Source: Micromonospora sp. M71_S20
Lineage (GTDB): Bacteria; Actinomycetota; Actinomycetes; Mycobacteriales; Micromonosporaceae
NCBI RefSeq assembly: GCF_003664255.1
Contig: NZ_RCCV01000004.1
Span: forward strand, 1 to 64,000
Direction: 5' to 3'
Length of the DNA: 64,000 bases
Position 1 is the first letter of the stretch; each line of letters starts with the position of its first letter. A program made the translations under genes and the position numbers. Positions 1,093 to 18,529 of this stretch are shown here, in pieces. The notes beneath the pieces are model-generated. The model was given only the letters and a program-made list of their open reading frames with translations, had not been told where the DNA came from and searched no databases.

Positions 1093-2217
1093 TCAGCCAG
1101 CGAGGGCGTCGTGCAGAGCGGCTACGACTCGGTCGATGTCGTCGGAACTCAGCGAGGGATGGAACGGCAGGGTGAGGATGCGCTGGCCGATCTCCTCGGT
1201 GGCCGGCAGGCTGGTCGTCCACTGTTCGAAGGCCGGCTGGAGGTGGTTGGGCGGGTAGTGGACACCGACTCCGATTCCTGCGGCCCGCATCTGGTGGAAG
1301 ATCCGGTTGCGGTCGGGTATCTGCACCACGCAGTTGAACGGGACGGTGTGGTCGATGTCGACGTCGGTAAGCTCGACGTTGGGCAGGTCAGCGAGAGCTG
1401 CGGCATACCGGTGCCATAGCTGCTGGCGGATCATGCGTGCCTGATCGAAGTTGGCGAGCTGCACCGAGCCGATCGCGGCATTCATCGATTGCAGGTGAGC
1501 CCGCACACCGAAGCCGATGACGTCGTACGTGGTGGCCTCGGCTCGTTGGGCGAGGGTCTGGGCGATGCCGGTGGTCCGCATCCGGCGCAGCTTTTCGGCC
1601 TGCTCAGGGGTGCGGGGTACGATCGCGCCGCCTTCGCCGCAGGTGAGGTTCTTCATCGGGCCGAAGGAGAAGCACGTCATGATGCGTCGGTTGGTGCCGA
1701 CCAGCCGCCCGTCGAGGTTGGAGCCGAAGGCTTGCGCCGCGTCCTCGATGATGTGGATGCCGCTGTCGTTCAGATGCTCCTGGATGCCGGTGAGGTCGAC
1801 GGCTCGGCCGGAGTAGAGCACGGGCATGACTGCCCTGGTCGTCGAGGTCACTGCGGCGAGGATGTCGTCGGCGCGGACGCAGAGGCTGCTCTTGTCGACC
1901 TCGATGAATACCGGGTTGGCGCCGGTGGCGATGATTGCTTGGATCGTGGAGCAGAACGTTAGCGAGGGGACGATCACCTCGTCGCCGGGGCCGATCCCGG
2001 CGGTGAGCAGTGCAAGCTGCATCGCGACGGTGCCCGTGGCGACGCAGACGACGTCGGGAACGCCGAGGTAGTTGGCGAGGTCTGTCTCGAAGCGTTCGGT
2101 GATCGGGCCGTGGCCGTAGTGCCCGGCGAGCAGAGCGTCGGTGACGGCCTTGATTTCGGGTCCGTACAGGATGGGGCCGGCGTTGCGGCTGGCACCGCCG
2201 GGGAGTGCGATGGTCAT
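1093..2217 (-). CDS. DegT/DnrJ/EryC1/StrS-family PLP aminotransferase
   Basis: The 374-residue length is normal for the DegT/StrS fold-type I aminotransferases that act on nucleotide-linked keto-sugars or on cyclitols. The PLP lysine is K189 in SFGPMKNLTCGEGG, the family hallmark. An EDAAQAFGS segment near residue 160 supplies the aspartate that pairs with the pyridine nitrogen, and the ATGTVAMQLAL region near 60 binds phosphate. The ATG at 2217 overlaps the ATP-grasp stop (ATGA), so the two are translationally coupled. The partner dehydratase upstream suggests amination of a 4-keto sugar, but amino acids or other ketones are possible because the cluster contains no sugar nucleotidyltransferase or glycosyltransferase. 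Confidence 0.88.
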   Translation of the reverse strand: MTIALPGGASRNAGPILYGPEIKAVTDALLAGHYGHGPITERFETDLANYLGVPDVVCVATGTVAMQLALLTAGIGPGDEVIVPSLTFCSTIQAIIATGANPVFIEVDKSSLCVRADDILAAVTSTTRAVMPVLYSGRAVDLTGIQEHLNDSGIHIIEDAAQAFGSNLDGRLVGTNRRIMTCFSFGPMKNLTCGEGGAIVPRTPEQAEKLRRMRTTGIAQTLAQRAEATTYDVIGFGVRAHLQSMNAAIGSVQLANFDQARMIRQQLWHRYAAALADLPNVELTDVDIDHTVPFNCVVQIPDRNRIFHQMRAAGIGVGVHYPPNHLQPAFEQWTTSLPATEEIGQRILTLPFHPSLSSDDIDRVVAALHDALAG

Positions 2218-3251
2218 CGGAGGCCTCCGTTGGGGCTCGGCGATGGCACGGGAGATGGGATCGGCCGGGTAGCGGCCAACGGCGTGGGGCCGGCGACGAT
2301 CGTGTCGACGTACTTGATCAGGTGAATGTCGGGGGTGTAGCGGAGCCGGTCGTGGTTGACGGCCCGGCCGAACATGCCGTTGAGGAACTGACCGATGAGA
2401 TCGGCGCCGGCTGCTTCGCTGATCGGGAACGCGCCGGCGATCCGCCCGTTGACCTCGGTGATGAGGACTCGGCCTGGGTCGTCGGTGAGGAATCCCTGGA
2501 CGCAGCACAGTCCGGTCATGCCGAGGGCGGCGACGGTGGCGGTAACCGTCTTGGCCACCTGGTCGTCGTGGAAGGTGCGCGCGGCCACAGACAAACCGTT
2601 GCGGACTGTGAGCCGGTGGCGGGTGATTGCCGAGACGTTCCCGTCGTGGTCGATGAGGCAGTCGGCGGTGAACTCCGATCCGGAGATTCGTTCCTGCACG
2701 AGTGGGTCGTCGACCAGTTCGCACAGTACGCGCGCCTGGCGCACGGTGTGGCAGATGTGCAGGCCCTTGCCGCCGTGGCCCCGTCGGGGTTTGACGACCA
2801 GATCGATGCCTTCGGGGATCCGGTCGAGTTCGGCTGGCAGCCACGTGCGCGGTGTCGGGACGCCGTGCAGGCGGGCCAGCCGGTGGAACTCGGCTTTGTC
2901 GTGGCAGGCGGTCATCGCTGCGGGCGAGGGGAGCCAGGTCCGTACGCCGAGAGCATGGAGTTGGTCCCGCAGCTCGACGAGCCGCAGAATCTCGCTCTCG
3001 TCGGTGGGAATGAGCGCTGCCGGGCGTTCTGACCGGCAGATGTCGAGTAGGGCGCCGGTGTATCGCGCGTCACGGCTGGGCGGAACCACCCGGGGGGTGA
3101 GGCCGGGCAGGAACAGTCCGGCGGCGAGCGGATTCGTGTCAGTGCCGATGACCTGGTAGCCGGCGAGGTGCAGGACCCGCGCCAGGTCGAAGCCGGGGGC
3201 GCCACCGACGGCGGTGACCAGCAACGGCCGATCGGTGAGGTCAGCCGACAT
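2214..3251 (-). CDS. ATP-grasp ligase (carbamoyl-phosphate-synthase-like)
   Basis: The protein has 345 residues. The N-terminal third is Rossmann-like (LLVTAVGGAPGFDLAR; GTDTNPLAA), as in the pre-ATP-grasp domain of PylC/CarB-like enzymes. The ATP-grasp core follows, with VVKPRRGHGGKG as the ATP lid and ITEVNGRIAG as the Mg-binding strand. Enzymes of this group activate a carboxylate with ATP and join it to an amine. The start at 3251 lies 11 bases inside the dehydratase gene, and the stop overlaps the aminotransferase start, so all three should be co-translated. The product is probably an amide or peptide bond onto the aminated intermediate, but the substrates cannot be read from sequence. 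Confidence 0.85.
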   Translation of the reverse strand: MSADLTDRPLLVTAVGGAPGFDLARVLHLAGYQVIGTDTNPLAAGLFLPGLTPRVVPPSRDARYTGALLDICRSERPAALIPTDESEILRLVELRDQLHALGVRTWLPSPAAMTACHDKAEFHRLARLHGVPTPRTWLPAELDRIPEGIDLVVKPRRGHGGKGLHICHTVRQARVLCELVDDPLVQERISGSEFTADCLIDHDGNVSAITRHRLTVRNGLSVAARTFHDDQVAKTVTATVAALGMTGLCCVQGFLTDDPGRVLITEVNGRIAGAFPISEAAGADLIGQFLNGMFGRAVNHDRLRYTPDIHLIKYVDTIVAGPTPLAATRPIPSPVPSPSPNGGLR

Positions 3252-4317
3252 AGCCGTGCCCGTTCGCGCTGGCACCCATCGCGGCCAACTGCGGGGTGTC
3301 CCACCGGTCGCAGTTGTCGCGGTACCACTGCACGGTCTGGGCCAAGCCAGCCGTCAGCTCCCATGTCGGGTGGTAGCCGAGGTCAGCGCGGACCTTGCTC
3401 GAATCGATGGAGTACCGGATGTCGTTGGAGAGACGGTCCGGGCCGTACTCGACACGATCCCAGGTCGCACCGACCTCGGCGAGAAGCAGAGCTGTCATCT
3501 CTTTGTTCGTCAGGTCGGTGCCGCCGCCGATGTTGTAGGCCTCACCGGGCAGTCCTCGGCGCATGACGAGGTCGATGCCCTGGCAGTTGTCCTCTACGTG
3601 CAGCCAGTTGCGCACGTGCTGGCCCCGGCCGTGCAGAGTCACGTTCTGACCGGAGAGCAGCCGGGTAATGAACAACGGCACCAGCTTCTCGTGGTGCTGG
3701 CCGGCGCCGTAGTTGTTGACCGATCGGGTGATGCACACCGGCACCCCGTAGGTATGGAAGTACGACATCGCGATCTGCTCCGCAGCCGCCTTCGACGCCG
3801 CGTAGGGAACCGTCGGGCACAGCGGGTCGTCCTCGCGGGCCGTGCCGGTGCGCAGCGGGCCGTACACCTCGTCGGTGGAAACGTGCACGAACTTGTCCAC
3901 CCCGTACGTGCGGGCCGCGTCCAGCAGGTGGAAGGTACCCACCACGTTGGTCTGGACGAAGGACCCGGCATCGCCGAGCGACCGCGTCACGTGCGACTCG
4001 GCGGCGAAGTGCACGACGATATCGCTGTCGGAGACCAAACCATCGATCAACGCCCGATCGTCCAGCGTGCCCTTGACGAACGTGACCCGGGAGTCATCCA
4101 GCACAGGACCCAGGTTGCCCAGGTGCCCTGCATAGGTGAGCGCGTCAACCACGGTAATCGTGCTGTCGCCGGCGGCGAGCAACCGCTTGACGAAATGCGA
4201 GCCAATGAACCCCGCACCGCCGGTGACTAGAACCCTCTGCACTGTCCTCTCGTTGGGGGTTTGCGCCGTCCTCGCACCCACCGCCTCCGCGGCCGGCATT
4301 TGCACCGTCATGTGCAT
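3241..4317 (-). CDS. NAD-dependent epimerase/dehydratase, dTDP-glucose 4,6-dehydratase-like
   Basis: This extended SDR has 358 residues. The NAD loop GGAGFIGSH is at about residues 33-41. STDEVYG carries the Thr-Asp-Glu triad typical of RmlB-type 4,6-dehydratases, and YAASK is the Tyr-x-x-x-Lys pair. VRNWLHVEDNCQGI and YNIGGG near the C terminus are also RmlB-like. The ATG at 4317 has GAGG eight bases upstream; an in-frame ATG at 4311 is an alternative. The start faces the HTH-TPR regulator at 4525 across about 200 bases. It is the first gene of the minus-strand operon. The real sugar substrate may differ from dTDP-glucose. Confidence 0.85.
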   Translation of the reverse strand: MHMTVQMPAAEAVGARTAQTPNERTVQRVLVTGGAGFIGSHFVKRLLAAGDSTITVVDALTYAGHLGNLGPVLDDSRVTFVKGTLDDRALIDGLVSDSDIVVHFAAESHVTRSLGDAGSFVQTNVVGTFHLLDAARTYGVDKFVHVSTDEVYGPLRTGTAREDDPLCPTVPYAASKAAAEQIAMSYFHTYGVPVCITRSVNNYGAGQHHEKLVPLFITRLLSGQNVTLHGRGQHVRNWLHVEDNCQGIDLVMRRGLPGEAYNIGGGTDLTNKEMTALLLAEVGATWDRVEYGPDRLSNDIRYSIDSSKVRADLGYHPTWELTAGLAQTVQWYRDNCDRWDTPQLAAMGASANGHGYVG

Positions 4318-4460
4318 GACCCTTTCCTCAACTGATGTGGAGAACCGGCGGTCGCGGTGGCCGAGCCTCCCTGTGCGTCGGCCACCGCGCCGATACGTCG
4401 ACGGTATGGAGCAACACCGATGGCAGGCAGCGTGTGTTCCCGGCGGCAGGTGCGACGGAT

Positions 4461-4488
4461 TCACACAGGGTGTGAGTAGCCCACACCC
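4461..4488. promoter_or_regulatory. Nested inverted repeats in a divergent promoter region
   Basis: Two overlapping perfect inverted repeats lie 37-64 bases before the start of the HTH-TPR regulator. TCACAC-AGG-GTGTGA covers 4461-4475, and GGGTGTG-N7-CACACCC covers 4468-4488. They share the central GTGTGA half-site. Their position between the regulator and the divergent dehydratase operon is what an autoregulatory operator would show. Binding by the neighbouring regulator is inference. Confidence 0.45.
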
Positions 4489-4524: not shown

Positions 4525-5856
4525 ATGACGGAGGCGAACATCCTGCTCGATGCTCTCCTCGACCGCGCCGCTATGTCCCACGCCAGCCTGGCCCGGCACC
4601 TGAATGCACTCGACACGGCGCTGCGCTACGACCATGCCTCCGTCGCCCGGTGGATCCGCGACCAGGCCATCCCCCGTCACCCGGTGCCGCTGCTGATCTG
4701 CCGGATCATCGGTGACCGGCTCGGTACCACCGTGACCTTGGCCGACATCGGCATGGCGCCCGACCATGACCACGAACCGGCGACAGTGGCGGGGCTGATC
4801 GAGCGGGCCGCCGCCGTGTGGCGCGGTGACCAGAAAGGCCGCCACCCCACCAAGCCGTTGATCGGCGCCCAAGCCACCGCACCGTTGTGGGAGTGGGAGC
4901 ATCCACCCGACAACGACAACCTCACTCGGACCGGGCCCCGGCGTGTCGACCCGGTCGACGTCATCCGTCTGCGGCTCGCTCGTACCCGCTACCAGGAGAT
5001 GTATCGGCGCGTCGGTGGCCTACCGGTGCGAGCCCGCGTCGTAGACACTCTCACTGGCCAGGCCGCGCCCCTGCTGCGCGCCGCCTACGACAACAGCCGC
5101 GGCCGGGACCTCTTCCAAGCCGTCGCCGGACTCGCCGCGCTTGCCGGTGTCTGCGCCTACGACGCCAACCGGCAAGCCCTGGCTCAGCGCCACCTACTCA
5201 CCGCGCTGCGGCTGGCCAAAGCCTCTGGCGATCGCGCGCTCGGCGCCTACATCGTCGCCGTCATGGCTAACCAGGCACTCCACCTGCGCGAACACCGGCT
5301 CGTCGTCCAGTACACCCAAGCCGCCCTACGCGCCAGCGGCCCCGCTATCTCCCACGCCTTGGCCGCCGACCTGCATGCCCTCGCAGGCAAGGCATACGCC
5401 CGCATGCACGACACAACCAGCAGCCACGACCACCTCCGCCGCGCCGAAGCCCTCGCCGTCCGTCTCGACCCCAGCTCCGGGCCCGTGGAAGTGTCCTACG
5501 TTCAACCCGGCCTGATCGAAACCCAAGTCGCCGAAGCCCTCCGCCGCCTCGGCGATCTCACCGCCGCCCGTAGCTACGCAGACGAATCCGTCCGCACCGC
5601 CACCACCACCCACCTACGCGGACAGGTCCACCGGCACGCCGGCCTCACCCTCGTCCTCACGGCCCAAGGCGACCTCGAACATGCCATCGCGACCGGCCAC
5701 CGCATGCTCGACCGGCTTACCGGCATGGAATCCGGCAGGCTCGCCGACCGTATCCGGCAGGTCACCACAGCTCTGAAGCCACACGCAACCCAACCTGCCG
5801 TTGCCGCGTTCCTCGAACGAGCACACCACCACGCCGACGACCCGACAGGACCCTGA
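4525..5856 (+). CDS. HTH-TPR transcriptional regulator
   Basis: The protein has 443 residues. The first 80 are an atypical helix-turn-helix (SHASLARHLNALD, then YDHASVARWIRDQAIPR) of the kind found in actinomycete XRE/TPR regulators. Residues 130-430 form tetratricopeptide-like helical pairs (for example RDLFQAVAGLAALAGVCAYD and HRHAGLTLVLTAQGDLEHAI). Such proteins usually control development or secondary metabolism and sense through the TPR domain. The stop overlaps the Nudix start by one base (TGATG), so the two are made together. It is divergent from the dehydratase operon and may control it. A shorter relative, reduced to its C-terminal end, is at 11242-11529, there coupled to a phosphotransferase. 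Confidence 0.8.
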   Translation: MTEANILLDALLDRAAMSHASLARHLNALDTALRYDHASVARWIRDQAIPRHPVPLLICRIIGDRLGTTVTLADIGMAPDHDHEPATVAGLIERAAAVWRGDQKGRHPTKPLIGAQATAPLWEWEHPPDNDNLTRTGPRRVDPVDVIRLRLARTRYQEMYRRVGGLPVRARVVDTLTGQAAPLLRAAYDNSRGRDLFQAVAGLAALAGVCAYDANRQALAQRHLLTALRLAKASGDRALGAYIVAVMANQALHLREHRLVVQYTQAALRASGPAISHALAADLHALAGKAYARMHDTTSSHDHLRRAEALAVRLDPSSGPVEVSYVQPGLIETQVAEALRRLGDLTAARSYADESVRTATTTHLRGQVHRHAGLTLVLTAQGDLEHAIATGHRMLDRLTGMESGRLADRIRQVTTALKPHATQPAVAAFLERAHHHADDPTGP

Positions 5857-6389
5857 TGCGCTGGACGATCCACTCCGAACGGACCCTCTACCAAGACCCA
5901 TGGGTCCACCTCGCCAGCGCCGACGTCGAGCTACCTGACGGCCGCCACCTCGACCACCGCCTCATCCGCACCGCCGCACCCGGCGCCGGCCTCGCCATCA
6001 TCATCAACGAAAAAGTGCTCCTAATCTGGCGGCACCGCTTCATCACCGACACCTGGGGATGGGAAATCCCCCAAGGCAGCATCCGACCAGACGAGACGCC
6101 CCCAGCCGCAGCCGTACGCGAGGCACAAGAAGAGACCGGATGGCGCGCCGAAGGTCCGATCACACCGCTGCTATACGTCCAACCCTCCCCCGGACTACTC
6201 ACCAGCGAACACCACATCTACACCGCGACCCACGCACAACACCTCGGCGCACCCGAGGACCACCACGAAAGTCAATCAGTTAACTGGATCGCCCTCACCG
6301 AAATCCCTCACCTCATCGCCAAACGCGACATCGTCGCCGGAACAACGGTGGCCGCTCTTTGCCTCCTGCTTCACACGCGCACTAAATAG
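5856..6389 (+). CDS. Nudix hydrolase
   Basis: The protein has 177 residues. The Nudix box runs from about G74 to W96 (GSIRPDETPP...REAQEETGW) and has all the expected residues, including the REAQEE metal-binding helix. The N-terminal half (VHLASADVELPDGRHLDHRLI) resembles ADP-ribose/ADP-sugar pyrophosphatases. The box is preceded by GWEIPQG, also typical of that group. Likely reaction: cleavage of a nucleoside diphosphate linked to another moiety. It is translationally coupled to the HTH-TPR regulator, so it may supply or remove the ligand that the regulator senses. That link is inference. Confidence 0.87.
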   Translation: MRWTIHSERTLYQDPWVHLASADVELPDGRHLDHRLIRTAAPGAGLAIIINEKVLLIWRHRFITDTWGWEIPQGSIRPDETPPAAAVREAQEETGWRAEGPITPLLYVQPSPGLLTSEHHIYTATHAQHLGAPEDHHESQSVNWIALTEIPHLIAKRDIVAGTTVAALCLLLHTRTK

Positions 6390-6702: not shown

Positions 6703-7182
6703 TCACGGTTCAAGTTGACGTTCGTACACCGAACGGTGTTTCCCGGGCCCCTTGTAGTCGTGGGCTACGGACACTCCTTGCTCGACGGCATCGCCAGGGA
6801 GGTTGGTAAATCCCAAGGCGAGCCAAGCCCGATGCGCAGCGCCGTTGTCAGGTTCCGAGGTGAGGTAGAGGCGTCGGCATCCCCAGAGAGCGCCTTGGCC
6901 TTGGACTTCCTTCACGAGCGCCCGCGTGACCCCTTGCCGACGGTGACTGGGGTGCGTCATGACGTCCTGTAGGTAGATCTCTGACGGGTCGACCTGGCTG
7001 CGGAAGGCGATCACGCTGCCGACGACCTGCCCGTTGACGATGGCGAGTGGACAGGTGTTGGCGAACAGCGTGGCGTACAGCCAGTAGTCCGATGAGCCCC
7101 GCAGCCTGATATGTGGCTCTCCCAGCGCGAGCAGTTTTTCGAGGTCGGGGATGCGGTCGACCGTGAGCGAAGTGATGATCAT
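6703..7182 (-). CDS. GNAT N-acetyltransferase
   Basis: The protein has 159 residues. The acetyl-CoA pyrophosphate loop is HRRQGVTRALVKEV near residues 85-100, preceded by YLQDVMTHP. The C-terminal part (GAAHRAWLALGFTN) matches the last GNAT helices and strand. The ATG at 7182 overlaps the stop of the large upstream gene (ATGA), so it is translated from the same message. The acceptor substrate is unknown. Pairing with an HTH-NTPase-barrel protein suggests it is the output enzyme or a modifier in that two-gene system, which is inference. Confidence 0.85.
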   Translation of the reverse strand: MIITSLTVDRIPDLEKLLALGEPHIRLRGSSDYWLYATLFANTCPLAIVNGQVVGSVIAFRSQVDPSEIYLQDVMTHPSHRRQGVTRALVKEVQGQGALWGCRRLYLTSEPDNGAAHRAWLALGFTNLPGDAVEQGVSVAHDYKGPGKHRSVYERQLEP

Positions 7183-10100
7183 GATCGGTGTCCTTCGGCA
7201 AGCTCGATCGATGCGGCGAGGTCCCGTGCGGCGACGGCGGGGTCCAGGGAGTCGGTGACTCCGCGACCGACGACGAGGATGTCCCAGGAGCGTCGTCGGC
7301 TGGCTTCGACGTCGGTGGGTTCGAAGCCGCCGGAGACCGCGACCGGCAGTTTGGTCCACGACCTGATCAGTTGCGCCTGGTCGAGGGGGTGGAAACCGGC
7401 TACGCCCAGGTCGATGTTCGTGGTGATGGCGAAGCCGTCGACTCCCGCGCGTTCCATGTCCTGGACCCAGCCTTGATTCAGCCGGCCGGTGGGGACGTCG
7501 ATGATGACGGGGACGGCGAGGCGCTTGCTGGCCTCGACGGCTGCCGAGACGCTGGCGATACTGGCGGGTCCGATGAGTAGCACGACGTCGGCTCCGGCCT
7601 CGGTCGCGAGGACCACCTGGTCGCGTCCCCAGTCTGCCGACATCATCTCAGCGACGATCCATGCACCTGGTGCTTGTTGCTTGACGGCGCTGATTGCCTG
7701 GACGCCGACGCTCTTGATGAGCGGGTCGCCGATCTCGATGAATCGCACGCCAGCGGTGACGGCGGCCTGCGCGACGCTGATGGCGTAGTCGATGTCGCGG
7801 ACATCGAGTGCGACCTGGAGTGCGCGTCGGTCTCGGAGACGGCGGAAGGCTTCCTTGCTGATGCCTGCGGTCGTGATCGTGCTTGTGTCATGTCCGTCGA
7901 GCAGGTTGGCTTCGGTGCGGACGAGCCAGTCGGTTGAGGTGCCGCCCCGGCGAATCAGGGCGGATTTGACATCCGGAGGGAGCCGTAGGGCACCGGTGCG
8001 GGCTTCTCGAAGTAGGCCGAACAGGGCACCACGAGCTGAGTCTTCGTCGTGGATCGGTTGTCTGCCGGACTTGAGTAGAAGCCGCTGTGCGGCGACTCGG
8101 ACGTTTCGAGGGCCGTGTCGCCAGGCGTCCTGGTTGCTGATGACCAGGTCGGCAGCGGAGTCGTCGTGCCCGGCTCGGGCGGCGAGCCCTTGGAGGAGGC
8201 GTTCGCGGACGTGCCAGTTGCGGTCGTTGAGGAGAGTGGTGAGCAGGTGTTTCGTGCCGGATGCGGTCGAGCGGCCGACAGTGTCGGCCACGGCGGCGCG
8301 AACCTTGTAGTCGCGGTCCGCGACCAACGCTTCCAGGACCTCGGTGATCGTGTGGAGCGGGACAGCACGGCCTGCTCGGATTCCTTCGACGAGGGCGGCG
8401 CGGGCTCGCCAGTCGGGATGGGCCAGGAGTGCCTTCAGCTCGTGAGAACTGCCGTTGTCGGTGGCGAGGAAGACGTGGAAATGCCGGGCGATGAACACCG
8501 CATCCTCTACGGCGTCGAGTTGTGCGAGGCGAACGAAGTCGTGGACAGCGGCGATGGGTAGCTGCCTCTCGACGCACGCCACGATGTCGGACCAGACTGT
8601 CGGGCCGAAGCGGCGCAGCACTCGGAGCATCCATCGGGGGTACTCCGAGCCGAGGGCTGTGGCGGCTGCGCTGGTGTGCAGGAGGGCTCTGGCGAGGGGA
8701 AGCCCATTGTCGTGTAGGCACCGTGAGGCGCATACGCGCAGCACCTCGGCGGTGGCGAAGGCGGGGGCATCGCCGGTGAGTTCGAGCATCATCGGCAGCG
8801 TTTCGGTGATGCTGACCGATGGTGACTGGGCGACGGCGGCCAGCAGCTCCGGTGTCGTGGCGTCCAAGCCCTGCAAGGCGAATTCGAGGACGCCTCGCAG
8901 GTCGCCTGACTGGTTTGTGCGGGTGGCCAGGTCGTTGAGCAGCTCGATGGTGACGGTCGAGCGCCCCTGGGCCTCGATGAGCTGGGCGAGCCAGCGTGCG
9001 AAGAGGAACTCGCGAATGACGTCGTGATAGAACGTCAGGCCGCTGGTCGGTCCGGACCGCACGAGCCCTGTCGCCGAGGACGCGGTGACATCATCAGCAT
9101 TGTCTGAGTCGGCTTGGATCGGGGGGAGCAGGTGGTGAGGCCATGCTGCGGCGAGCTGCCGTCGCGCAAGGGCGGTCAGGGCCGCGGTGGCGCGTTCGAC
9201 ATCCAGGCCTGCGGCTTTCAAGATCGAAGCGACGCAGAATTCCACGAGCCGGTAGGCGTTGGTTTCTCCGAGCGGTTCAGTCGACTTGGCGGCCCGGATG
9301 AGGCTCATGTACAGCGGCAGACGCACCAGGTTGCGGATCTTCGCGGGTAGCGTGTCGAACGAGGGCTCGCCCTCGTGCCGCCGGGCGTTCCACACCTGCC
9401 GAGCGGTGCCAGTGTCCCAGCGTCCGAGCGGTAGCGAGGCACCAACGCCGGGATCCTGACCGGGGACGACCGCTGCCGCCAGGACGGGATAGGGCGCGAG
9501 CTCGATTTCCGGTGGCGTACGCAGCACGAGGAGAAACCGCAAATTCTTCGAGAGCACCTGCCGCAGCGTGGCGTCCAGTTGGCGGCAGACCTTGTCGACC
9601 ACAGCGCGGGACTGCGGACTGTCGATGACGACCAACAGCGGCCGGGACAGGCTCTGGCTCTCGTCTTCCAGAGTCAACAGGGGATCCTCGCCGGCTGGCA
9701 GGGAACCGTAGCGGAGGATCTCTCGCGCCAGATCGAGGTCCCCACTCCACGAGTCCGTGGTCAGCAGCTGAACATCCACACCGGGAACCTGCGCCGCCAG
9801 GTGGCGGGTGAAGCTGGACTTGCCGCAGCCCGGGGGACCGGTGACCAGGAAGACGCGGGAGGTCGAGGCCAACAAGTCCGCCACCAGCCGCTGGACGTCG
9901 GCCGGCGGCACATAGCCAAGGTCGTCGGGATGCTGGACACCGAACGCCGCGAGCACGGCAGCGGTCCGTTCTCTGGTGCGGGTACCGAGGTCTTGCCCTG
10001 TCGGCTGAGGGCCGTCGACGGGTGGCGGCGGTTGGCTTGGCACGGTAGCGGCTGCCGCCTGGAGGGCCTGAGCGAAGCGCTGCCTGACCTCGGTCGATGC

Positions 10101-10307
10101 CCGTGCAAGGTCGACGTCGAGCATCTGCTGGGTCTCGTAGCGCATTCGGCTTGTGGCGCCGCGTTTTTCCCAGTTGGAGACAGCCGTCGGAGTGAGCCCC
10201 AGGTGCTCGGCGAAGCCGCGCACGCTCATACGCAGCGCCAGGCGCAATGCTTTCGCCTCGCGGCCCGTCCACCGCCGTACCGTCTCCACGGGTATCCCCC
10301 AGGCCAT
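7179..10307 (-). CDS. XRE HTH - STAND-like NTPase - HEAT repeats - HPS-like barrel fusion
   Basis: The protein has 1042 residues. Residues 14-60 form an HTH (WTGREAKALRLALRMSVR, then LTPTAVSNWE). A P-loop NTPase follows: Walker A GPPGCGKS at 157-164 and a Walker B-like LLVVIDS at 224-230. A FYHDVIREFLFARWLA segment resembles the end of STAND/NACHT modules. Residues about 480-800 are HEAT-like helical repeats (for example ADRDYKVRAAVADTVGRS). Residues about 825-1035 match the hexulose-6-phosphate synthase/orotidine decarboxylase superfamily (QVALDVRDIDYA, FIEIGDP, AVSGGFEP, ILVVGRGVTDSLDPAVAAR). The catalytic DxKxxD is changed to ExMxxD (VAEMMSAD), so the lysine is absent and the barrel is probably a ligand sensor. 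The downstream GNAT overlaps by four bases. The ATG at 10307 directly precedes the HTH. Confidence 0.85.
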   Translation of the reverse strand: MAWGIPVETVRRWTGREAKALRLALRMSVRGFAEHLGLTPTAVSNWEKRGATSRMRYETQQMLDVDLARASTEVRQRFAQALQAAAATVPSQPPPPVDGPQPTGQDLGTRTRERTAAVLAAFGVQHPDDLGYVPPADVQRLVADLLASTSRVFLVTGPPGCGKSSFTRHLAAQVPGVDVQLLTTDSWSGDLDLAREILRYGSLPAGEDPLLTLEDESQSLSRPLLVVIDSPQSRAVVDKVCRQLDATLRQVLSKNLRFLLVLRTPPEIELAPYPVLAAAVVPGQDPGVGASLPLGRWDTGTARQVWNARRHEGEPSFDTLPAKIRNLVRLPLYMSLIRAAKSTEPLGETNAYRLVEFCVASILKAAGLDVERATAALTALARRQLAAAWPHHLLPPIQADSDNADDVTASSATGLVRSGPTSGLTFYHDVIREFLFARWLAQLIEAQGRSTVTIELLNDLATRTNQSGDLRGVLEFALQGLDATTPELLAAVAQSPSVSITETLPMMLELTGDAPAFATAEVLRVCASRCLHDNGLPLARALLHTSAAATALGSEYPRWMLRVLRRFGPTVWSDIVACVERQLPIAAVHDFVRLAQLDAVEDAVFIARHFHVFLATDNGSSHELKALLAHPDWRARAALVEGIRAGRAVPLHTITEVLEALVADRDYKVRAAVADTVGRSTASGTKHLLTTLLNDRNWHVRERLLQGLAARAGHDDSAADLVISNQDAWRHGPRNVRVAAQRLLLKSGRQPIHDEDSARGALFGLLREARTGALRLPPDVKSALIRRGGTSTDWLVRTEANLLDGHDTSTITTAGISKEAFRRLRDRRALQVALDVRDIDYAISVAQAAVTAGVRFIEIGDPLIKSVGVQAISAVKQQAPGAWIVAEMMSADWGRDQVVLATEAGADVVLLIGPASIASVSAAVEASKRLAVPVIIDVPTGRLNQGWVQDMERAGVDGFAITTNIDLGVAGFHPLDQAQLIRSWTKLPVAVSGGFEPTDVEASRRRSWDILVVGRGVTDSLDPAVAARDLAASIELAEGHRS

Positions 10308-10410
10308 GCACTCAGCGTCAAAGCGACTATCCGCTGATCAGTTTGCACGATGCCCCAGCGACATGGACACGCGACTGCGTGTCCGGCCGGTTCGGGGGTG
10401 GGCCAGCCTG

Positions 10411-10724
10411 ACCCGGTCACACCCTGGACGAGTCCGCTCCGAAGCGGCGTTCGCCGCGCTGGCCGGTGCGGCCCCTACCGGCCTCGTCAGGCAATACCAT
10501 CCGACACCGGCTCAGCCCGCGGCGGTGACCGACGCCTGAGCCGAGCGCTCTACACCGTCGCGCTGGTCCGCATGGGCCACGATGCCCGCACCCGCGACTA
10601 CGTCACCCGCCGCACCAGCGAGGGCCGCACCAAACGCGAGATCATGCGCAGCCTCAAGCGCTACATCAGCAGACAATTCTTCCGGACTCTGAATGGCGCC
10701 AACCCAGCCATCCCCCCCACTTGA
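10411..10724 (+). pseudogene. IS110-family transposase remnant (C-terminal)
   Basis: Two frames together give the conserved end of an IS110 (transposase_20) protein. SHPGRVRSEAAFAALAGAAP is read in one frame. RGGDRRLSRALYTVALVRM and SEGRTKREIMRSLKRYISR are read in another. The frame change falls near 10490. The N-terminal DEDD catalytic half is missing. It is a dead fragment and marks past insertion next to the large HTH-NTPase gene. Confidence 0.75.
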
Positions 10725-11782: not shown

Positions 11783-12567
11783 TCACCCCGCGAGGATGAT
11801 GTTGTGGAGATGGGCGATGCCGGAAGCGGTGTCGGTCAATGTGCTGGCGGCGCGGCGGTAGTCGCGCAGGATCTTGAAGCACTTCATGCGGGCCAGGGCG
11901 TGTTCGACCTGCGCGCGGACGGTGCGGTGTTGCTTGTTCAGCTCCTTCTTCCACTCGGGTAACTCGCTGCCGTCGGCGGGCTTGCGGTACGGGATGATCA
12001 CGTCGGGGTTGCCGCGGTAGGCACCGTCGGCCATGACAGGCCGTCCGGCCAGCTTCTGGTCGATGCCCGAGGTGCGGTAGACGATGGTGTCGTTGCGGTT
12101 GCCGGGTTGCGGGTCGCCGAGGGCCACGACGAGGCGGGTGTGGGCGTCAATGGCGACCTGCAGATTCGTGCTGTAGCGGTAGTTCTTGCTCGGGGCGGCC
12201 AGCCGGTGGTCCCGGGTCGGGACCAGGGTGCCGTCGACGATGGTGACCTGGTCGACCCGACGCCGGCGCCCCGGCGCCAGAGCGAGCAGGGGTCCGACGG
12301 TGTCGATGACCCGGTGCGCGGCGGAGTGCGACACCCCGAACAGCGGGCCGATCTGCCGCATCGTCAGGTTCGTGCGCCAGTACGCGGCGACCAGCAACAC
12401 CCGATCGGCGAGGTCAAGCGACCACTGCCGGCCCGGCCGTCAGCGATCGCGTCCCCGCCACGCTCGGCGACCAGCCGCACCAGCCTGCGGAACTGGGCGG
12501 GCTGCAGCCCGGTGAACGGAAAGATCCACTCCTGGCGGGCCGCCGAAATCACCTGCACCCCCGACAT
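11783..12567 (-). CDS. IS5-family DDE transposase in two frames
   Basis: The first frame runs 12567-12364 (SAARQEWIFPFTGLQPAQFR, the N-terminal HTH-like part). The second runs to 11783 and includes the whole catalytic half. DDE residues are seen in TIVDGTLVPTRD, VMADGAYRGNPD and QVEHALARMKCFK. Passing from the first to the second frame needs a -1 shift in the GC-rich overlap near 12425-12435. IS427-type elements normally make OrfAB by programmed frameshifting, so this may be functional. No classic A-rich slippery sequence is evident, and an inactivating indel is the alternative. Confidence 0.78.
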
Positions 12568-13512: not shown

Positions 13513-14217
13513 TAGGTGTGTGGTTCGAGGAGGTCAATGCACCGACCATCCGGCTCGCCGCCGGTATTGACCAGCCTGTTGCCGGCGGGGATCTGCTCGC
13601 CACTGTGTGGCGCTACGTCGCACCGCAGGAGCCTCCTCCCGACGCCGGTGACCTCGGCGTTACGCTGCGGGCGTTCCATGGCCTCGGCGTCCCTCCGCTG
13701 CACCTGCCCGTGTGGGATCCGATCGACGACGCTCGGCGCCGGCTCGACGACGCCGAAGGGCTCGCCGACGGTGACCGAGACTATCTGCTCGCCTGGTGCG
13801 ACCAGCTTGAACCTCGCCTTCAAGAGTTCGCGGCGGGCGTCGAGCCAGGACTCGTGCATGGTGACGCGCACGAGGAAAACTTGCTTCGCGACGTTTTCGG
13901 CAAGGTATTGCTGTTTGACTTCGATGCGACCTGCATCGGACCGTGGCAGGTCGACCTCGTTCCGCCTCCAGCGAACGAAGTTCGGTTCGGTCGTACTGAT
14001 GGACACCGCAAACTGGCAGCCGCCTACGGTTACGACATCACTCAGGATCCATCCTGGCCCTTGTTGCAAGAAGCACGTGAACTGAAGATGATCGCTGCGG
14101 CCGTACCGCTGCTGTCCAGTGCGCCAGGCGTGGCTGACGAGTTCCAGCTACGGCTGCGATCAGTTCGCACCGGCGACACCGGCATGCGATGGACCGCGTT
14201 TGGCGATCTCCCACGCT

Positions 14218-14352
14218 GATGCCGCGGCCTTCCCAATTGACTACTGTGGCTTTAGCGACGCCGAGATGCTCGGCGTAGGCCCTGATGCTCATCCGCCACG
14301 CTTGACGAAGCACTGCTTCCTCTCGGCCTGTCCAACGCTTTACGATCGCCAC
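14218..14352 (-). pseudogene. HTH stump related to the large HTH-NTPase protein
   Basis: A GTG at 14352 with GAAGGGAG upstream opens about 45 codons (KRWTGREEAVLRQAWRMSIR, then YAEHLGVAKATVVNWE) that match the N-terminal HTH of the 1042-residue protein at 7179-10307. After WEGRG the frame continues to 14038 antisense to the phosphotransferase, with no further similarity. It is the 5' end of a regulator cut off by the phosphotransferase gene. Confidence 0.6.
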
Positions 14353-14994
14353 CCCGGCTCCCTTCTCGTGGCGTGCTCTTGTAGGTATCTCCTCTGATTG
14401 AAAATGCGACGGCTTCCGCATCCTTTTGCTTCATTCACTGTCCCGGTGCACAAATTCTCGGTAGCCGGCGGCGTTGACAAGGCGCAGTTTCCGCAGTAGG
14501 GAAAGATTAAATCGCCTCTGAAGTGGATCCGTTTGCTCGTGCGTCTTGCTGCGTGGAGAGCCTGAGTTTCCTGGCCAGTCCATTTTGCAGTCATTGTGAT
14601 GGGGCTGTCTCCCAGTGTAGGTCGGCGGACGCGTTCTTGATCATGACTGGCAGGGAGGCAGACTGGTACAAGACTAGTACAAGGCTGGTGCATCCTCCGG
14701 TTCCAGTAAGGCTGTCGGGCCGGCATGATCTTCATGGATGACGTGAACGTTCAGGTTGGGCTATGGAGCGCTGAGCGGGATTGTCGGCTCAGGCGGTGAT
14801 CTAGCGCTGCGACAACGGATGATTGCGGTTTTGGTCAGCCGAATTATCGGCCGAGTGGCCAGCGTTGCCACTATCGGCTTTTCCAGGATGTGGCGACTCC
14901 CCGCGCTGCGAGCACTGCGAGCGGGGCTCCGGTAGTGACCATCCTGGCCGTCAAGGCCAGCAAGGTTGATTACCAGCAGAAACCAGGGGGAAGG
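14353..14994. other. Mostly non-coding stretch before the sensor kinase
   Basis: This holds the second HTH stump and a possible SigA-type promoter on the plus strand: TTGACA (14474-14479), 17 bases, TAGGGA (14497-14502). The promoter is nearly 500 bases before the kinase start, so its target is unclear. No other gene was recognised. Confidence 0.4.
14530..14594 (-). pseudogene. Second HTH N-terminal stump
   Basis: From ATG 14594 the text TAKWTGQETQALHAARRTS repeats the WTGxExxALxxAxR pattern seen at 14218-14352 and at the start of the 1042-residue protein, then diverges. It lacks a clear ribosome-binding site. It is a decayed relic of a third gene of this class. Confidence 0.45.
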
Positions 14995-17523
14995 GTGACG
15001 AGTTTCGAGAGCACTGCGAGACAGGGCTCCCGCGTGAGGACGCGTCGACTGGTCGACTGGCCCGTTCGGCTCAAGGCGGCACTGATCGTTGTGCCGATCG
15101 CGCTGGCGGCAGTGCTCTCGACGGGATTCGGTCTCTGGTCTTCGGTCGCGGAGGCAAGCATGGCGCAGCGCGCTGGGGACATGTTCGCCGCGGGTGGGGC
15201 CGCTGCGGAGGTGACGCAGCGGCTTCAGGTTGAGCGGATCGCTGCGGTGGGCCTGCTGCTGCCGGGCTCGACGGTCACTCCAGCCGCTTTCGAGCGTGCG
15301 GTTCAGGACACGGATCGTGCGGTGTCTCGGTTTCACGAGCAGCGTGACCGGCTTGATGACGTGCCGGAGTCTGTGCGACTGGTGTTGACCAGGGTGGACG
15401 CCGGCTTGGTGGACGTGGGGGCGCAGCGGCAGCGGGTGCGAGGCGATGGGCTGGTGTCGTTGTCGGCGGTGGCCTTCGGTTACCGCGGGGTGATTGCTGA
15501 TCTTGATGACTTGCTGCCCGCGGTGGCGCAGAGCGGCGTTACTCCTCAGCTCGCTGACGAGATGCGCGCGGCGGTGGCGTTGTCGCGGGCTCGGGAGTCG
15601 GTGGGTCAGCAGCAGGTGGCGGTGTTGCAGGCGTTGGCGGCTAGGCGGTTGACCCCGGCGCTGCATGCCGAGATCGTGGCCGCCCGGTCCGCGCAGGACG
15701 AGGCGTTGCGTGAGTTTGACGCGTTGGCGCGGCCGTCGTGGCAGGCGTTGCTGGGTCGGACGCTGACTGGCCTGGACGTGCTGGCCGCCGTGCGGCTGGA
15801 TGGGGCGGTGTCCGGCACGGGCGTGTATGAGCCGGTCCGGTTGGCGGGCGGCGCTGAGCAGTGGAGCCGCGTGATGACCACCCGGGCGGACCTGCTGGCC
15901 CAGGTGCAGTCGACCGTGAACGGTGACATCGAGGCTGCCGCTGATGACCTGTGGATGGAGCAGGTTCGGTCTGCCGCGCTCCAGGCCGCTGTGCTGATAG
16001 TGATGCTGGTCGTCGCCGTGGTCACCGCGGTGCGGGTGGCGCGGTCGCTAATCGGCCAGTTGTCGTTGTTGGAACAGGGTGCACGGCGAGTCGCGGACGT
16101 GGAGCTGCCGAGCCTGGTCAGACGGCTGCGGGCGACATCGGATCCTGCGTCGGCGCGTCGGTTGGCCGATGGCGCCGGTGGGGTGGCGGTGCCGGTCGTC
16201 GGTCAGGACGAGGTGGGCCGGGTCGCGGGTGCGTTCAACCTGGTGTTGCGCTCTGCGGTGGACGCGGCAGCGGATCAGGCGCAAAGTCGCGCCCTGGTCA
16301 GCGCGATGATCACCTCAGTCGGGCGGCGAGTGCAGGCGCTCACGGAGCAATTGCTGAACAGCATCGATCTCCTGGAGCGGGACGAGGAGGATCCGGATCG
16401 GCTGGCGATGGCGTTCAAAGCTGACCAGCTGGCGACTCGGTTGCGCCGCTTTGGGCTGAACCTGCTGACCGTCGCCGGTGGTGGCCTGGGACAGCCGCAG
16501 CGCGAGCCGGTGGAGTTGGGCGACCTGGTGAACGCCGCGTTGTCAGAGACCGAGGGGTTCGCCCGTATCAGGGTTGAGCAGCTGGTTGGGGTCGAGATCG
16601 ATGCTCGTGCGGTCAATGCGGTCAAGTCCATCTTGGCGGAGCTGTTGGACAACGCGACCCGCTTCTCCGCTGACCAGGTGCGGGTGTCGTCGGGGTGGAC
16701 GGGGCGTGACCTGCAGATCCTTGTGCTCGACTCCGGTCTCGGGCTGGGCGCGGAGCAGTTGGATCGTGCCAACGCGTTGCTGGCGAGCCCGGAGGTGGAG
16801 GTCACGGTCACCGACCAGATGGGCCTGGTCGTGATCTCGCGGCTCGCCCGCGAGTTCGGGGTCCGTGTGCGCCTGAACTTGACCCGACCGACTGGTATCA
16901 CGGCTGAGGTGACCGTGCCGGCTGAGTACGTGACCCGTGTTCATGTGCGCGAGATTGTGGTGCCCAGCCAGGTTCAGCGCCACGCCCGTCCCGAACTCGT
17001 GCCAGCATCCCACCCGGTTGCCCCGGTGCAGCCTGTGGTTCCGGCGGTGCCGCGGACTGGCGACGGCTGGGCGGGCCCGACCCGGCCATTGCCGACGGTG
17101 CCGGCGCCACCGCCGGACGTGACGGTGGAGTTGCTGCCGGTGCGCCGTGAGCGGGCAGCACGGTCGTTGCCGGCGGGCCGGTCCCGTCCGGCGGACACTC
17201 CGGTGTTTCGTGAGGTCGCGGCCCGCTCGCCGTGGTTGTGGCCGCAGACCGACGACGCAAGCGCGTTCCACACTGCCGCTGACGCGGGCTGGCAGGCGGC
17301 GGCGTCCACCGCTGAGCCGGCCACGGATGGGCTTACGGCGTCTGGTCTTCCTCGGCGTCGCCCCCACGCGCACGTGGTGCCGGGTGGGCTGCCATCGCAG
17401 CGCGCCGGCTCCGAGTTTTCCGCACCGATCGATCCTGCGGCGATTCGCGCGCAGGTCGCCGGAACGATGCGTGGCCTGCGGGCCGCGTCTGTCACTCCTC
17501 CCCTCGCGACAGGAGAACGCTGA
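14995..17523 (+). CDS. Actinobacterial sensor histidine kinase with NIT-like extracellular domain
   Basis: The GTG at 14995 is chosen because AGGGGGAAG lies just before it and the first membrane helix (LIVVPIALAAVLSTGFGLW) then starts about 25 residues in; an in-frame ATG lies at 14890. The 842-residue product has a large outer helical region resembling nitrate/nitrite-sensing (NIT) domains, a second helix (AVLIVMLVVAVVTAVRVARS), a HAMP-like linker and a GHKL ATPase (ELLDNATRFS at about 547; LDSGLGLG). The dimerisation helix (MITSVGRRVQALTEQLLN) lacks the usual phospho-histidine, as is typical of kinases preceding roadblock genes. A Pro-rich tail ends the protein. The stop overlaps the roadblock start (TGATG). 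Confidence 0.85.
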   Translation: MTSFESTARQGSRVRTRRLVDWPVRLKAALIVVPIALAAVLSTGFGLWSSVAEASMAQRAGDMFAAGGAAAEVTQRLQVERIAAVGLLLPGSTVTPAAFERAVQDTDRAVSRFHEQRDRLDDVPESVRLVLTRVDAGLVDVGAQRQRVRGDGLVSLSAVAFGYRGVIADLDDLLPAVAQSGVTPQLADEMRAAVALSRARESVGQQQVAVLQALAARRLTPALHAEIVAARSAQDEALREFDALARPSWQALLGRTLTGLDVLAAVRLDGAVSGTGVYEPVRLAGGAEQWSRVMTTRADLLAQVQSTVNGDIEAAADDLWMEQVRSAALQAAVLIVMLVVAVVTAVRVARSLIGQLSLLEQGARRVADVELPSLVRRLRATSDPASARRLADGAGGVAVPVVGQDEVGRVAGAFNLVLRSAVDAAADQAQSRALVSAMITSVGRRVQALTEQLLNSIDLLERDEEDPDRLAMAFKADQLATRLRRFGLNLLTVAGGGLGQPQREPVELGDLVNAALSETEGFARIRVEQLVGVEIDARAVNAVKSILAELLDNATRFSADQVRVSSGWTGRDLQILVLDSGLGLGAEQLDRANALLASPEVEVTVTDQMGLVVISRLAREFGVRVRLNLTRPTGITAEVTVPAEYVTRVHVREIVVPSQVQRHARPELVPASHPVAPVQPVVPAVPRTGDGWAGPTRPLPTVPAPPPDVTVELLPVRRERAARSLPAGRSRPADTPVFREVAARSPWLWPQTDDASAFHTAADAGWQAAASTAEPATDGLTASGLPRRRPHAHVVPGGLPSQRAGSEFSAPIDPAAIRAQVAGTMRGLRAASVTPPLATGER

Positions 17524-17936
17524 TGAGCGTCACCACTACTGCCACACCCCGTAATCCGCAGCTTTCGACTGTGCTGGACGGGTTGGCGCAGCAGATGCCG
17601 GCCGTGGCGCACGTCGTCGCGGTGTCCGCGGATGGGCTGTTGCTGGCCAGCACCTCCGGCCTGGAGATTGACCGGGGCGACCAGCTCGCCGCGATCGTGT
17701 CCGGGCTGGTGAGTTTGGCCCGCGGTGCCACCGATCTGCTGCTGACCGGGGGTGTGCAGTTCCAGCTGCTGATGATGGCCGACGGGATCCTCGTCGTGCA
17801 GCAGGTGCCCGACGGCACGTCGCTGGCGGCGCTGGCCCGCGTCGACTGCGACCCGTCGCTCGTCGCCTACCAGCTGGCGGCGCTCGCGGCACGCATCGGT
17901 GAGCAGGCGAGACCGGGACCACGCGTGGCGGGCTGA
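17523..17936 (+). CDS. Roadblock/LC7-domain protein
   Basis: The protein has 137 residues. VAHVVAVSADGLLLASTSGL and ARGATDLLLTGG are the hallmark strands and turns of actinobacterial roadblock proteins. Such proteins sit between a histidine-kinase-like protein and a small GTPase in conservon-type operons and probably act as adaptor or GTPase regulator at the membrane. It overlaps the kinase by one base. The DUF742 protein that usually follows in conservons is absent here. Confidence 0.9.
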   Translation: MSVTTTATPRNPQLSTVLDGLAQQMPAVAHVVAVSADGLLLASTSGLEIDRGDQLAAIVSGLVSLARGATDLLLTGGVQFQLLMMADGILVVQQVPDGTSLAALARVDCDPSLVAYQLAALAARIGEQARPGPRVAG

Positions 17937-17941
17937 CCCAG

Positions 17942-18493
17942 GTGCCGGCGGTGACGAGCATGGACTTGGACCCGAGCGTGATTGACGGTCATGCCTCGGC
18001 GGTCACGGTTCTGGTGACCGGAGGCCCGGGGACGGGCAAGACCTGCTTCCTGCGGGCCGCGAGCCACGGCCACTTGGTGCTGGCTGGCCATCCGGGCAGC
18101 GTGTGGGAGGCCGGCTCCGCCACCCTGCCCACCGGCGTCACCGTCACCCTGCGCACCACCCCCGATCAGCGGCGCTGGTGGTGGATGTGGGACCAGCTCG
18201 CCACCGGCGTGTTCGGGGCTGTGGTGCTGGTCGACTCCACCCGCTTGGCGGCCTCGTATCCGGCGCTGGACTACCTCGACGCCCGCCGTCTGCCGTACCT
18301 GGCGGCGATCAACCGGCCCCTCGGTGGCGCGCGTAACCGCCGGGAGATCCGCGAGGCCCTGCGGGTCGCCGGGCGGGTGCCGGTCCTGACCTGCGACGCC
18401 ACCGAGCCTGCCTCCGTCTTGGACGTCCTGCACCACCTCATCACCTCCATACCCGCCAGCTGTCACCCGCCTTCGACGCCCCTTCCTTCCTGA
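17942..18493 (+). CDS. Conservon-type ATP/GTP-binding protein
   Basis: The protein has 183 residues with a GTG start. The P-loop is GGPGTGKT near residues 27-34. VVLVDSTRLAASYPALDYL and INRPLGG occupy the switch/Walker B and NKxD-like positions seen in CvnD-type GTPases. The usual NRFDG is changed to NRPLGG, which may weaken guanine recognition. It follows the roadblock gene by five bases and completes a kinase-roadblock-GTPase set without DUF742. It is likely a signalling switch working with the kinase and perhaps with the transporter that follows. Confidence 0.85.
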   Translation: MPAVTSMDLDPSVIDGHASAVTVLVTGGPGTGKTCFLRAASHGHLVLAGHPGSVWEAGSATLPTGVTVTLRTTPDQRRWWWMWDQLATGVFGAVVLVDSTRLAASYPALDYLDARRLPYLAAINRPLGGARNRREIREALRVAGRVPVLTCDATEPASVLDVLHHLITSIPASCHPPSTPLPS

Positions 18494-18529
18494 CCAGCAA
18501 TGCACTTGGACGAAAGGACTCCGACTCCC

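Follow-up and report, generated by a model that had tools for sequence, protein, structure and literature searches.

A stretch of 64,000 nucleotides from Micromonospora sp. M71_S20 (contig NZ_RCCV01000004.1, positions 1 to 64,000; hereafter the window) was analyzed, where a gene for a predicted multidomain regulator is followed directly by a gene for a GNAT acetyltransferase, both on the reverse strand (Table 1). The regulator chain consists of a helix-turn-helix (HTH), a NACHT/STAND-like P-loop NTPase, HEAT repeats, and a barrel resembling 3-hexulose-6-phosphate synthase (HPS), in that order. The same order had been given in an initial annotation made from the sequence of the window, and it agreed with matches to Pfam and PDB entries and with the family members described below. 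The initial annotation had also called the gene at 7179-10307; this frame is uninterrupted on the reverse strand over 1,042 codons, but its ATG at 10307 is the less likely start. In four of the seven close loci (L003, L051, L052, and L062), an in-frame stop was found two codons ahead of the V of a conserved V-[ED]-T-V-R-R-W motif, and hence the natural start is probably GTG 10289, to which ATG 10307 would add six codons.

Table 1. Features of the regulator locus and its surroundings in the window.
Feature	Position	Strand	Evidence or remark
Regulator gene	7179..10289	-	1036 amino acids from GTG 10289; listed as P0003, 1036 amino acids
XRE-like HTH, residues 8-66	10110..10286	-	HTH_3 E=0.0049, HTH_Tnp_ISL3 E=0.0014
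NACHT/STAND-like P-loop NTPase, about residues 111-460	8928..9977	-	Motif columns in 117 rows
HEAT repeats, residues 624-709	8181..8438	-	PF13646 (HEAT_2) E=1.4e-10, over cut-off
HPS/OMPDC-suprafamily barrel, residues 830-1036	7200..7820	-	PF00215, TIGR03128, PDB matches
Altered active-site motif E-M-M-S-A-D-W-G, residues 887-894	7626..7649	-	Replaces D-x-K-x-x-D-x-G
GNAT acetyltransferase, 159 amino acids	6703..7182	-	PF00583 E=2.7e-15, 57.1 bits vs cut-off 20.7
Open reading frame directly upstream, where close relatives have the 15-bp element	10350..10724	+	Pfam: 0 families at E<=1e-3
DDE transposase	11783..12400	-	PF13359 E=5.1e-18
Second copy of the regulator HTH, remnant	14212..14361	-	54% identity to residues 4-53, E=5.4e-10
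NUDIX hydrolase	5856..6389	+	PF00293 E=1.6e-18
NsdA-family TPR-like regulator beyond GNAT	4525..5856	+	NF053720 E=4.2e-100, 336 bits vs cut-off 75
dTDP-glucose 4,6-dehydratase	3241..4464	-	TIGR01181 372 bits vs cut-off 365.1
ATP-grasp / carbamoyl-phosphate-synthase-like	2214..3275	-	PF02655 E=6.2e-14; NF009405 E=1.3e-41, below cut-off
DegT/DnrJ/EryC1-type sugar aminotransferase (matched part)	1099..2115	-	PRK11658 E=1.9e-68, PseC E=1.3e-66, both below cut-off

A whole-length search, in which only the 7,994 candidates sharing the most words were scored, recovered 153 proteins at E<=1e-10, far beyond chance, and 120 of these matches were listed. Of the listed proteins, the 116 with 850 or more residues were aligned with the window protein (P0035, P0038, P0076, and P0118 were dropped); as P0003 is the window's own protein, the 117 alignment rows hold it twice. 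The family comprises at least 116 long proteins, and the named ones all belong to actinomycetes, with sources in Micromonospora, Solwaraspora, Krasilnikovia, Rugosimonospora, Frankia, Amycolatopsis, Nocardia, Nocardiopsis, Streptomyces, Saccharopolyspora, Actinopolyspora, Actinomadura, and Actinoplanes. PF00215, the OMPdecase/HUMPS family, was listed for all 116 long relatives. The initial annotation had considered that a separate barrel gene might have been fused to the chain by a sequencing error; this was ruled out, as at least 116 long relatives and 19 intact genomic loci share the fusion. When the N-terminal 600 residues were used as the query, 32 matches were found among the best candidates scored. 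PF00215 was present in 29 of them and the remaining three are short, with 593-804 residues, so the N-terminal module was not seen with another sensor among these matches.

Pfam profiles were scanned against 45 family members. HTH_3 was matched in 15 and HTH_31 in 14 of them at E<=1e-3, which places the N-terminal domain in the XRE/Cro fold, while the HTH matches of the window protein near residues 17-49 fell below the Pfam cut-off. HEAT repeats were found in 43 members and PF00215 in all 45; in the window protein, PF00215 extends over residues 830-1029 with E=1.1e-11, above its cut-off. STAND profiles were matched at E<=1e-3 by some members (NPHP3_N in 13, NACHT in five, nSTAND3 in five, and nSTAND5 in three). 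The NACHT clade of STAND proteins is marked by Walker A, Walker B followed by a small residue, a sensor-1 Arg, a G/L-x-P, and H-x-x-x-[RQ]-E-[FY] after the ATPase core. The window protein has Walker A at residues 157-164, the Walker B D229, Arg 263, L-P at 330-331, and H-D-x-x-R-E-[FY] at 428-434. The domain probably belongs to this clade, as the corresponding columns are near-invariant in the 117 rows: K163 in 116, D229 and R263 in all 117, P331 in 116, and H428 in 115, with G or S after D229 in 111.

The nearest solved structures to the C-terminus are 3-hexulose-6-phosphate synthases (9lj9 at E=4.3e-27, 3f4w, and 3ajx), and the family profile matched 9lj9 at E=5.3e-41. The barrel also matched TIGR03128 at E=4.3e-31, but with 108.2 bits against a cut-off of 200, and PRK07028 at E=3.8e-37, far under the cut-off. 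The relationship to the OMPDC superfamily that the initial annotation had proposed for this region was thus recovered with both Pfam and PDB.

The Lys and His of the HPS and KGPDC active site are catalytic. To compare these positions, 29 HPS-like barrels were taken as controls from loci L021-L049 of a phylum search, in which 45 of 396 genomes matched at E<=1e-20. E887, M889, S890, D892, W893, and G894 were identical in 117 of 117 family rows, and position 888 was M in 115 and L in two, whereas the equivalent control columns held D, K, T, D, A, and G in 29 of 29. After one row was dropped for an insufficient barrel, the column of the catalytic His was T962 in all 116 family rows and H in every control. 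Other fixed or near-fixed changes from control to family were T to D861, E to Q897, R to W947, A to N964, Q to G968, A to W1008, and G to R1015. Family and controls share, unchanged or nearly so, Q831, D835, E858, G860, P862-K865, G868, D892, and D937, as well as E952, I965, D966, P988, GG 993-994, and G1014. The replacement of DxKxxD by ExMxxD noted in the initial annotation was therefore confirmed, as residues 887-892 read E-M-M-S-A-D and ExMxxD is present in all 117 rows; a lysine-free site conserved over many orthologues, which the annotation had named as a mark of a sensor, is likewise a property of every row, with the window protein counted twice.

The residues predicted as functional for HPS (3ajx) in Table 1 of PMC5980557 include D8, E30, D59, K61, D64, D109, and H134, which by alignment correspond to D835, E858, E887, M889, D892, D937, and T962, while R192, predicted as functional for KGPDC in the same table, corresponds to R1015. 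With neither the catalytic Lys nor the His and with its score under the TIGR03128 cut-off, the barrel does not qualify as an HPS enzyme and, judged from these residues, appears to be catalytically dead. With both the Lys and the His replaced, the acidic residues retained, and an Arg as at the phosphate site of KGPDC, the site may rather represent a phosphate-binding pocket without HPS chemistry.

Among the ten host genomes searched, nine encoded no HPS over the curated cut-off. In the eight that belong to Micromonosporaceae, the barrel of the regulator was the only full-length HPS-like match; in the other two, the cut-off was exceeded by an HPS of G1178, and a full-length match of G1400 stayed below it. 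In comparison, the HPS model was matched in 12 of 14 control genomes and exceeded the cut-off in two. As their own barrel is the only full-length match, the regulator barrel in those eight Micromonosporaceae does not seem to be simply a part of a formaldehyde pathway.

Constraint varied among the domains. The median identity to the window protein was 0.61 for the HTH (114 rows) and 0.60, 0.43, and 0.39 for the barrel, NTPase, and HEAT repeats (116 rows each). Similarly, over pairs of eight close loci, the median dN/dS was 0.065 for the HTH, 0.109 for the barrel, and 0.24 for the HEAT repeats (28 pairs each), and 0.25 for the NTPase (27 pairs). The most constrained parts are hence the HTH and the barrel, the two ends that would touch DNA and ligand. 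The barrel dN/dS of 0.109 and the invariant altered site also rule out plain drift of a dead domain.

The GNAT gene was found directly behind the regulator in all 19 loci with an intact regulator (18 genomes). In the window, its start overlaps the regulator stop by four bases (ATGA), and the exact four-base overlap was present in 18 of the 19 loci, with an overlap of 11 bases between the reading frames in L056; the GNAT coupling noted in the initial annotation was therefore confirmed. In L058, the GNAT frame breaks about two thirds in. Including four loci with a partial or broken regulator, 39 GNAT columns showed a single residue across the 22 or 23 loci that could be read at that position. 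The nearest solved relatives are the diaminobutyrate acetyltransferase EctA, followed by YqjY and aminoglycoside acetyltransferases (AAC(6')), which points to a small amine as the probable substrate. The distances of GNAT and regulator were correlated (Spearman 0.69, 0 of 2,000 permutations; 19 rows, of which that of L056 is in the wrong frame), but this is weak evidence because shared descent would give the same result.

A conserved 15-base pair (bp) element was identified upstream of the regulator gene as a candidate operator. The sequence CTAGTGTTGTCCTAG is common to the seven close loci, in one with a single mismatch, at 101-105 bases ahead of a conserved Trp codon. It recurs exactly in L055, whose protein is 53% identical, about 104 bases ahead of the Trp codon, and with two mismatches in L058 (43% identical), 79 bases ahead, so that nine of the 18 upstream regions contain it at no more than two mismatches. 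A whole-genome search at no more than one mismatch found the element once in each of six of the eight genomes, always before the regulator gene; these six sites were known beforehand, and the search therefore tests uniqueness. A k-mer search over ten diverse upstream regions yielded nothing above shuffles. Several observations count against the switch proposed below. Copies with four mismatches in L054 and L056 were equaled in nine and ten of 200 shuffles, and the remaining seven of the 18 regions (L057 and six Pseudonocardiaceae loci) had at least five mismatches; a reversed control pattern gave two hits in the eight genomes; and the element is missing upstream of the regulator copy in the window. 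One common operator for all members was rejected, as the element is missing from the Pseudonocardiaceae loci and L057.

The genes transcribed away from the regulator differ between loci and usually include some for small-molecule synthesis. Four genomes of the window's genus (L052, L062, L063, and L086) contain a divergent row of seven genes of an aminosugar/nucleoside type, assigned by Pfam on L063 and by similarity in the other three, which encode an amino-acid permease, a formamidase-like protein (FmdA), GPP34, an S-adenosyl methyltransferase, a deoxynucleoside-kinase-like protein (dNK), a Zn-dehydrogenase, and a DegT aminotransferase. Parts of this row were found at L003, L053, and L057. 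Other loci showed different contents. For example, L084 includes two thymidylate-synthase-like genes, an epimerase, and a NodU-type carbamoyltransferase, and L089 has an epimerase and a carbamoyltransferase as in L084, with reading frames that begin alike. L054 encodes a methyltransferase, an epimerase, and a carbamoyltransferase, and L083 a thymidylate-synthase-like gene. Lanthipeptide genes of the LanB and LanC types occur at L085, together with one protein over the cut-off for an FxLD-system methyltransferase, and L090 has reading frames of nearly the same lengths as those of L085 and beginning alike, a similarity of starts and lengths only. Additional neighbors were an HMGL-like gene at L082, an amine oxidase at L051, a radical-SAM gene about 1.5 kb off at L055, PhyH genes at L058, and an AAA protein at L056. 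At L089, a pPIWI-RE protein was also identified at 15631-18549 on the reverse strand (PADLOC E=3.9e-95), about 3 kb downstream of GNAT.

The dehydrogenase of the seven-gene row was present in 11 and the regulator in 12 of 200 genomes of the family, with four genomes shared against 0.66 expected (hypergeometric P=0.002, assuming that both counts drew the same 200 genomes), and the two were at the same locus in three of the four. The link between the regulator and this row is enriched, not obligatory.

In the window itself, the alignment with the upstream DNA of relatives fails past about 10320-10350, and the usual upstream DNA is absent. The open reading frame found there instead is presumably the end of an IS110-type transposase, and a DDE transposase lies further along. 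Beyond these, two broken starts of the same HTH (WTG type) were found on the reverse strand, at 14212-14361 and at about 14500-14590, and a copy of CTAGTGTTGTCCTAG with three mismatches at 14663-14677 (chance expectation in the window 0.37), and a second copy of the regulator system may have decayed in this region. A reading frame for an APH-type phosphotransferase (13518-14219, forward strand; PF01636 E=4.6e-11) overlaps the region of the broken HTH. On the other side of the regulator-GNAT pair, the NsdA-family regulator is directly followed by the NUDIX hydrolase, both pointing towards the GNAT gene (4525-6389). The genes for the sugar aminotransferase, the ATP-grasp protein, and the dTDP-glucose 4,6-dehydratase also stand on this side, and the aminotransferase is 29% identical to that of the neighboring operon of relatives.

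The occurrence of the regulator varied among taxa. It was found in five of 61 genomes of the genus (one as a fragment) and 12 of 200 of the family Micromonosporaceae, where one remnant and one variant are counted. At the level of the order, 11 of 397 genomes had it, as did ten of 200 of a second family of that order, presumably Pseudonocardiaceae, with partial copies included in the latter two counts. A class search with the barrel at E<=1e-25 found one of 394 genomes, the window's own. Partial copies were frequent, some of them at contig ends. A gene of mobile plasmids or phages was rejected, as no plasmid matched at E<=1e-20, three phage records matched in the barrel only, and viral contigs gave none. 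Replication-relaxation and DUF2637 genes, which we take to be typical of actinomycete integrative elements, were observed beyond GNAT on the opposite strand at L050-L052 and L063 (by Pfam in one of the four genomes and by similarity in the others), and travel of the regulator on such elements is possible.

Divergent versions of the pocket were also observed. Of 66 proteins from the barrel and N-terminal searches (P0123-P0188), 54 hold E[ML]MS[AS]DWG and 12 do not; the two of these 12 that were read, P0154 (EMMSADWR) and P0174 (EMISTDWG), are also without the Lys. P0166, a 239-residue barrel with EMMSADWG, comes from a bin labeled Ktedonobacteraceae and, going by that label, lies outside Actinomycetota. 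At L059 (7717-9318, reverse strand), a 533-residue relative includes the HTH, HEAT repeats, and barrel, with no NTPase or GNAT match and with the pocket motif lost; it is a single case linking pocket, NTPase, and GNAT.

Based on these observations, the regulator is best read, with a probability of about 0.6, as a STAND-type transcription switch that is gated by a metabolite, contained in one protein, and accompanied by a GNAT. A phosphorylated metabolite would be bound but not converted by the barrel, where E858 and E887 might coordinate a divalent ion. The HEAT stack would pass the signal of ligand binding from the C-terminus to the NTPase, and the oligomerization and ATP/ADP state of the NTPase would position the N-terminal HTH on DNA close to the promoters of the regulator itself and of the divergent genes. 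The regulator-GNAT pair would most likely control both of these promoters. As the pocket stays the same next to different operons, it probably recognizes a sugar phosphate or nucleotide-like metabolite that is common in cells, not the product of each pathway. Similarly, because the GNAT is also constant across loci, it probably acetylates a common amine, which could be the signal, a product, or the regulator itself. This combination of an unchanged pocket and variable neighbors points to a regulator that is portable and senses a common phosphorylated metabolite. More tentatively, and with the odds somewhat against it, the pair may form a portable actinomycete control module, in which an HPS-family pseudoenzyme sensor and a GNAT tie one central phosphorylated metabolite to the adjacent natural-product operon.

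Besides those named for the upstream element, four points weigh against the switch. The NTPase of the window protein is sub-threshold to the Pfam STAND models (nSTAND3 E=0.016 and NPHP3_N 0.072, with P-loop/AAA matches near 139-229); like many accessory genes, the regulator is scattered among genomes and some of its copies are broken; seven of the 11 genomes with the dehydrogenase of the seven-gene row lack the regulator; and the pocket retains many polar invariant residues and could belong to a new enzyme. In this last case, the barrel would be a neofunctionalized enzyme that carries out a different, metal-assisted reaction on a phosphorylated substrate, with the regulator answering turnover and the GNAT performing the next step of the pathway. 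The retained D835, E858, D892, D937, and D966, the new invariant or near-invariant polar residues D861, S890, Q897, T962, N964, and R1015, and a conservation as strong as expected of an active site are all consistent with such an enzyme. It is nevertheless considered unlikely, as the Lys and His used by HPS and KGPDC are replaced throughout (M889 in 117 of 117 rows and T962 in 116 of 116), and as 29 of the 32 N-terminal matches are fused to the barrel, the rest being short, which would be more expected of a sensor than of an enzyme in a pathway. Short barrel proteins do exist, but the sole barrel-only reading frame read in a genome (G010) was rejected as a free-standing version, since it reads as a 5'-truncated regulator remnant followed by GNAT. 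Barrels of the OMPDC suprafamily are dimers in which the last Asp of the motif is supplied across the interface, and the retention of this Asp as D892 would also fit a structural dimerization module that no longer binds anything. A pure scaffold, however, needs no invariant or near-invariant E887, M889, S890, W893, T962, N964, and R1015, and the relative at L059, without NTPase and GNAT, keeps the barrel though its pocket motif is lost, which together make this module improbable.

The initial annotation had offered two functions, a metabolite-gated transcription switch or a phage-defense sensor, of which the former is favored here and the latter gained little support. An anti-phage STAND sensor (Avs-like) would recognize a phage-made metabolite or protein with its barrel and use the HTH or GNAT as the effector, and it could account for the STAND-like NTPase with HEAT repeats, the patchy distribution (5 of 61 genus and 12 of 200 family genomes), and the pPIWI-RE gene downstream of GNAT, present in one locus. 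In contrast, PADLOC matches of the regulator were weak and partial (best E=4e-5), and one strong and one weak defense match were found among ten neighbor proteins, in a scan that was not systematic. In addition, the sensor pocket is conserved rather than diversified, the phage matches amounted to three of 50,697 records at 27-30% identity in the barrel only, and a codon-degenerate motif was absent from viral contigs. A role in defense thus has a low probability, and a metabolite-gated switch remains the preferred reading.

STAND transcription regulators of the MalT and AfsR type are known to unite in a single polypeptide a NACHT-like NTPase, a DNA-binding domain, and a superhelical repeat. The regulator resembles them in this combination and differs in its N-terminal XRE-like HTH, its HEAT rather than TPR repeats, and a pseudoenzyme barrel as the sensor end; to our knowledge, no such barrel end occurs in families of the MalT and AfsR type. 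HPS (HxlA) is the best match of the C-terminal 205 residues and has D835, E858, G-x-P-L-I-K, D892, D937, and GG 993-994 in common with the regulator. Unlike HxlA, the barrel has Met for Lys, Glu887 for Asp, Thr for His, D861 for T, and Arg 1015 for Gly, and it ends a regulator chain and scores 108 bits against the cut-off of 200. KGPDC shares the fold family and a G-R at the barrel end (R192 of PMC5980557, which aligns with R1015), but the regulator barrel is without the Lys and His. Actinobacterial conflict proteins have been described in which the variable C-terminal module can be an OMP-decarboxylase-like domain (Kaur et al., 2020, PMC7159879, System 4). There, the domain stands behind a caspase domain in a membrane system of two genes and is interpreted as an effector. 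The C-terminal position is the same as in the regulator, while the section on System 4 describes no HTH-NTPase-HEAT chain and the text of the paper does not contain the term GNAT. Literature searches on the family found no description of the sensor end, the domain order, or the GNAT pairing. The single domains are known, and the barrel as a sensor end, the domain order, and the pairing with a GNAT are apparently undescribed.

If the barrel is indeed a sensor, the family would provide a test case of an enzyme fold that was turned into the input end of a STAND switch, with a defined pocket in which to search for ligands and an entry point to the control of natural-product operons. If the more tentative portable module holds as well, it would represent a previously undescribed class of sensors and a common key to silent clusters of differing chemistry.

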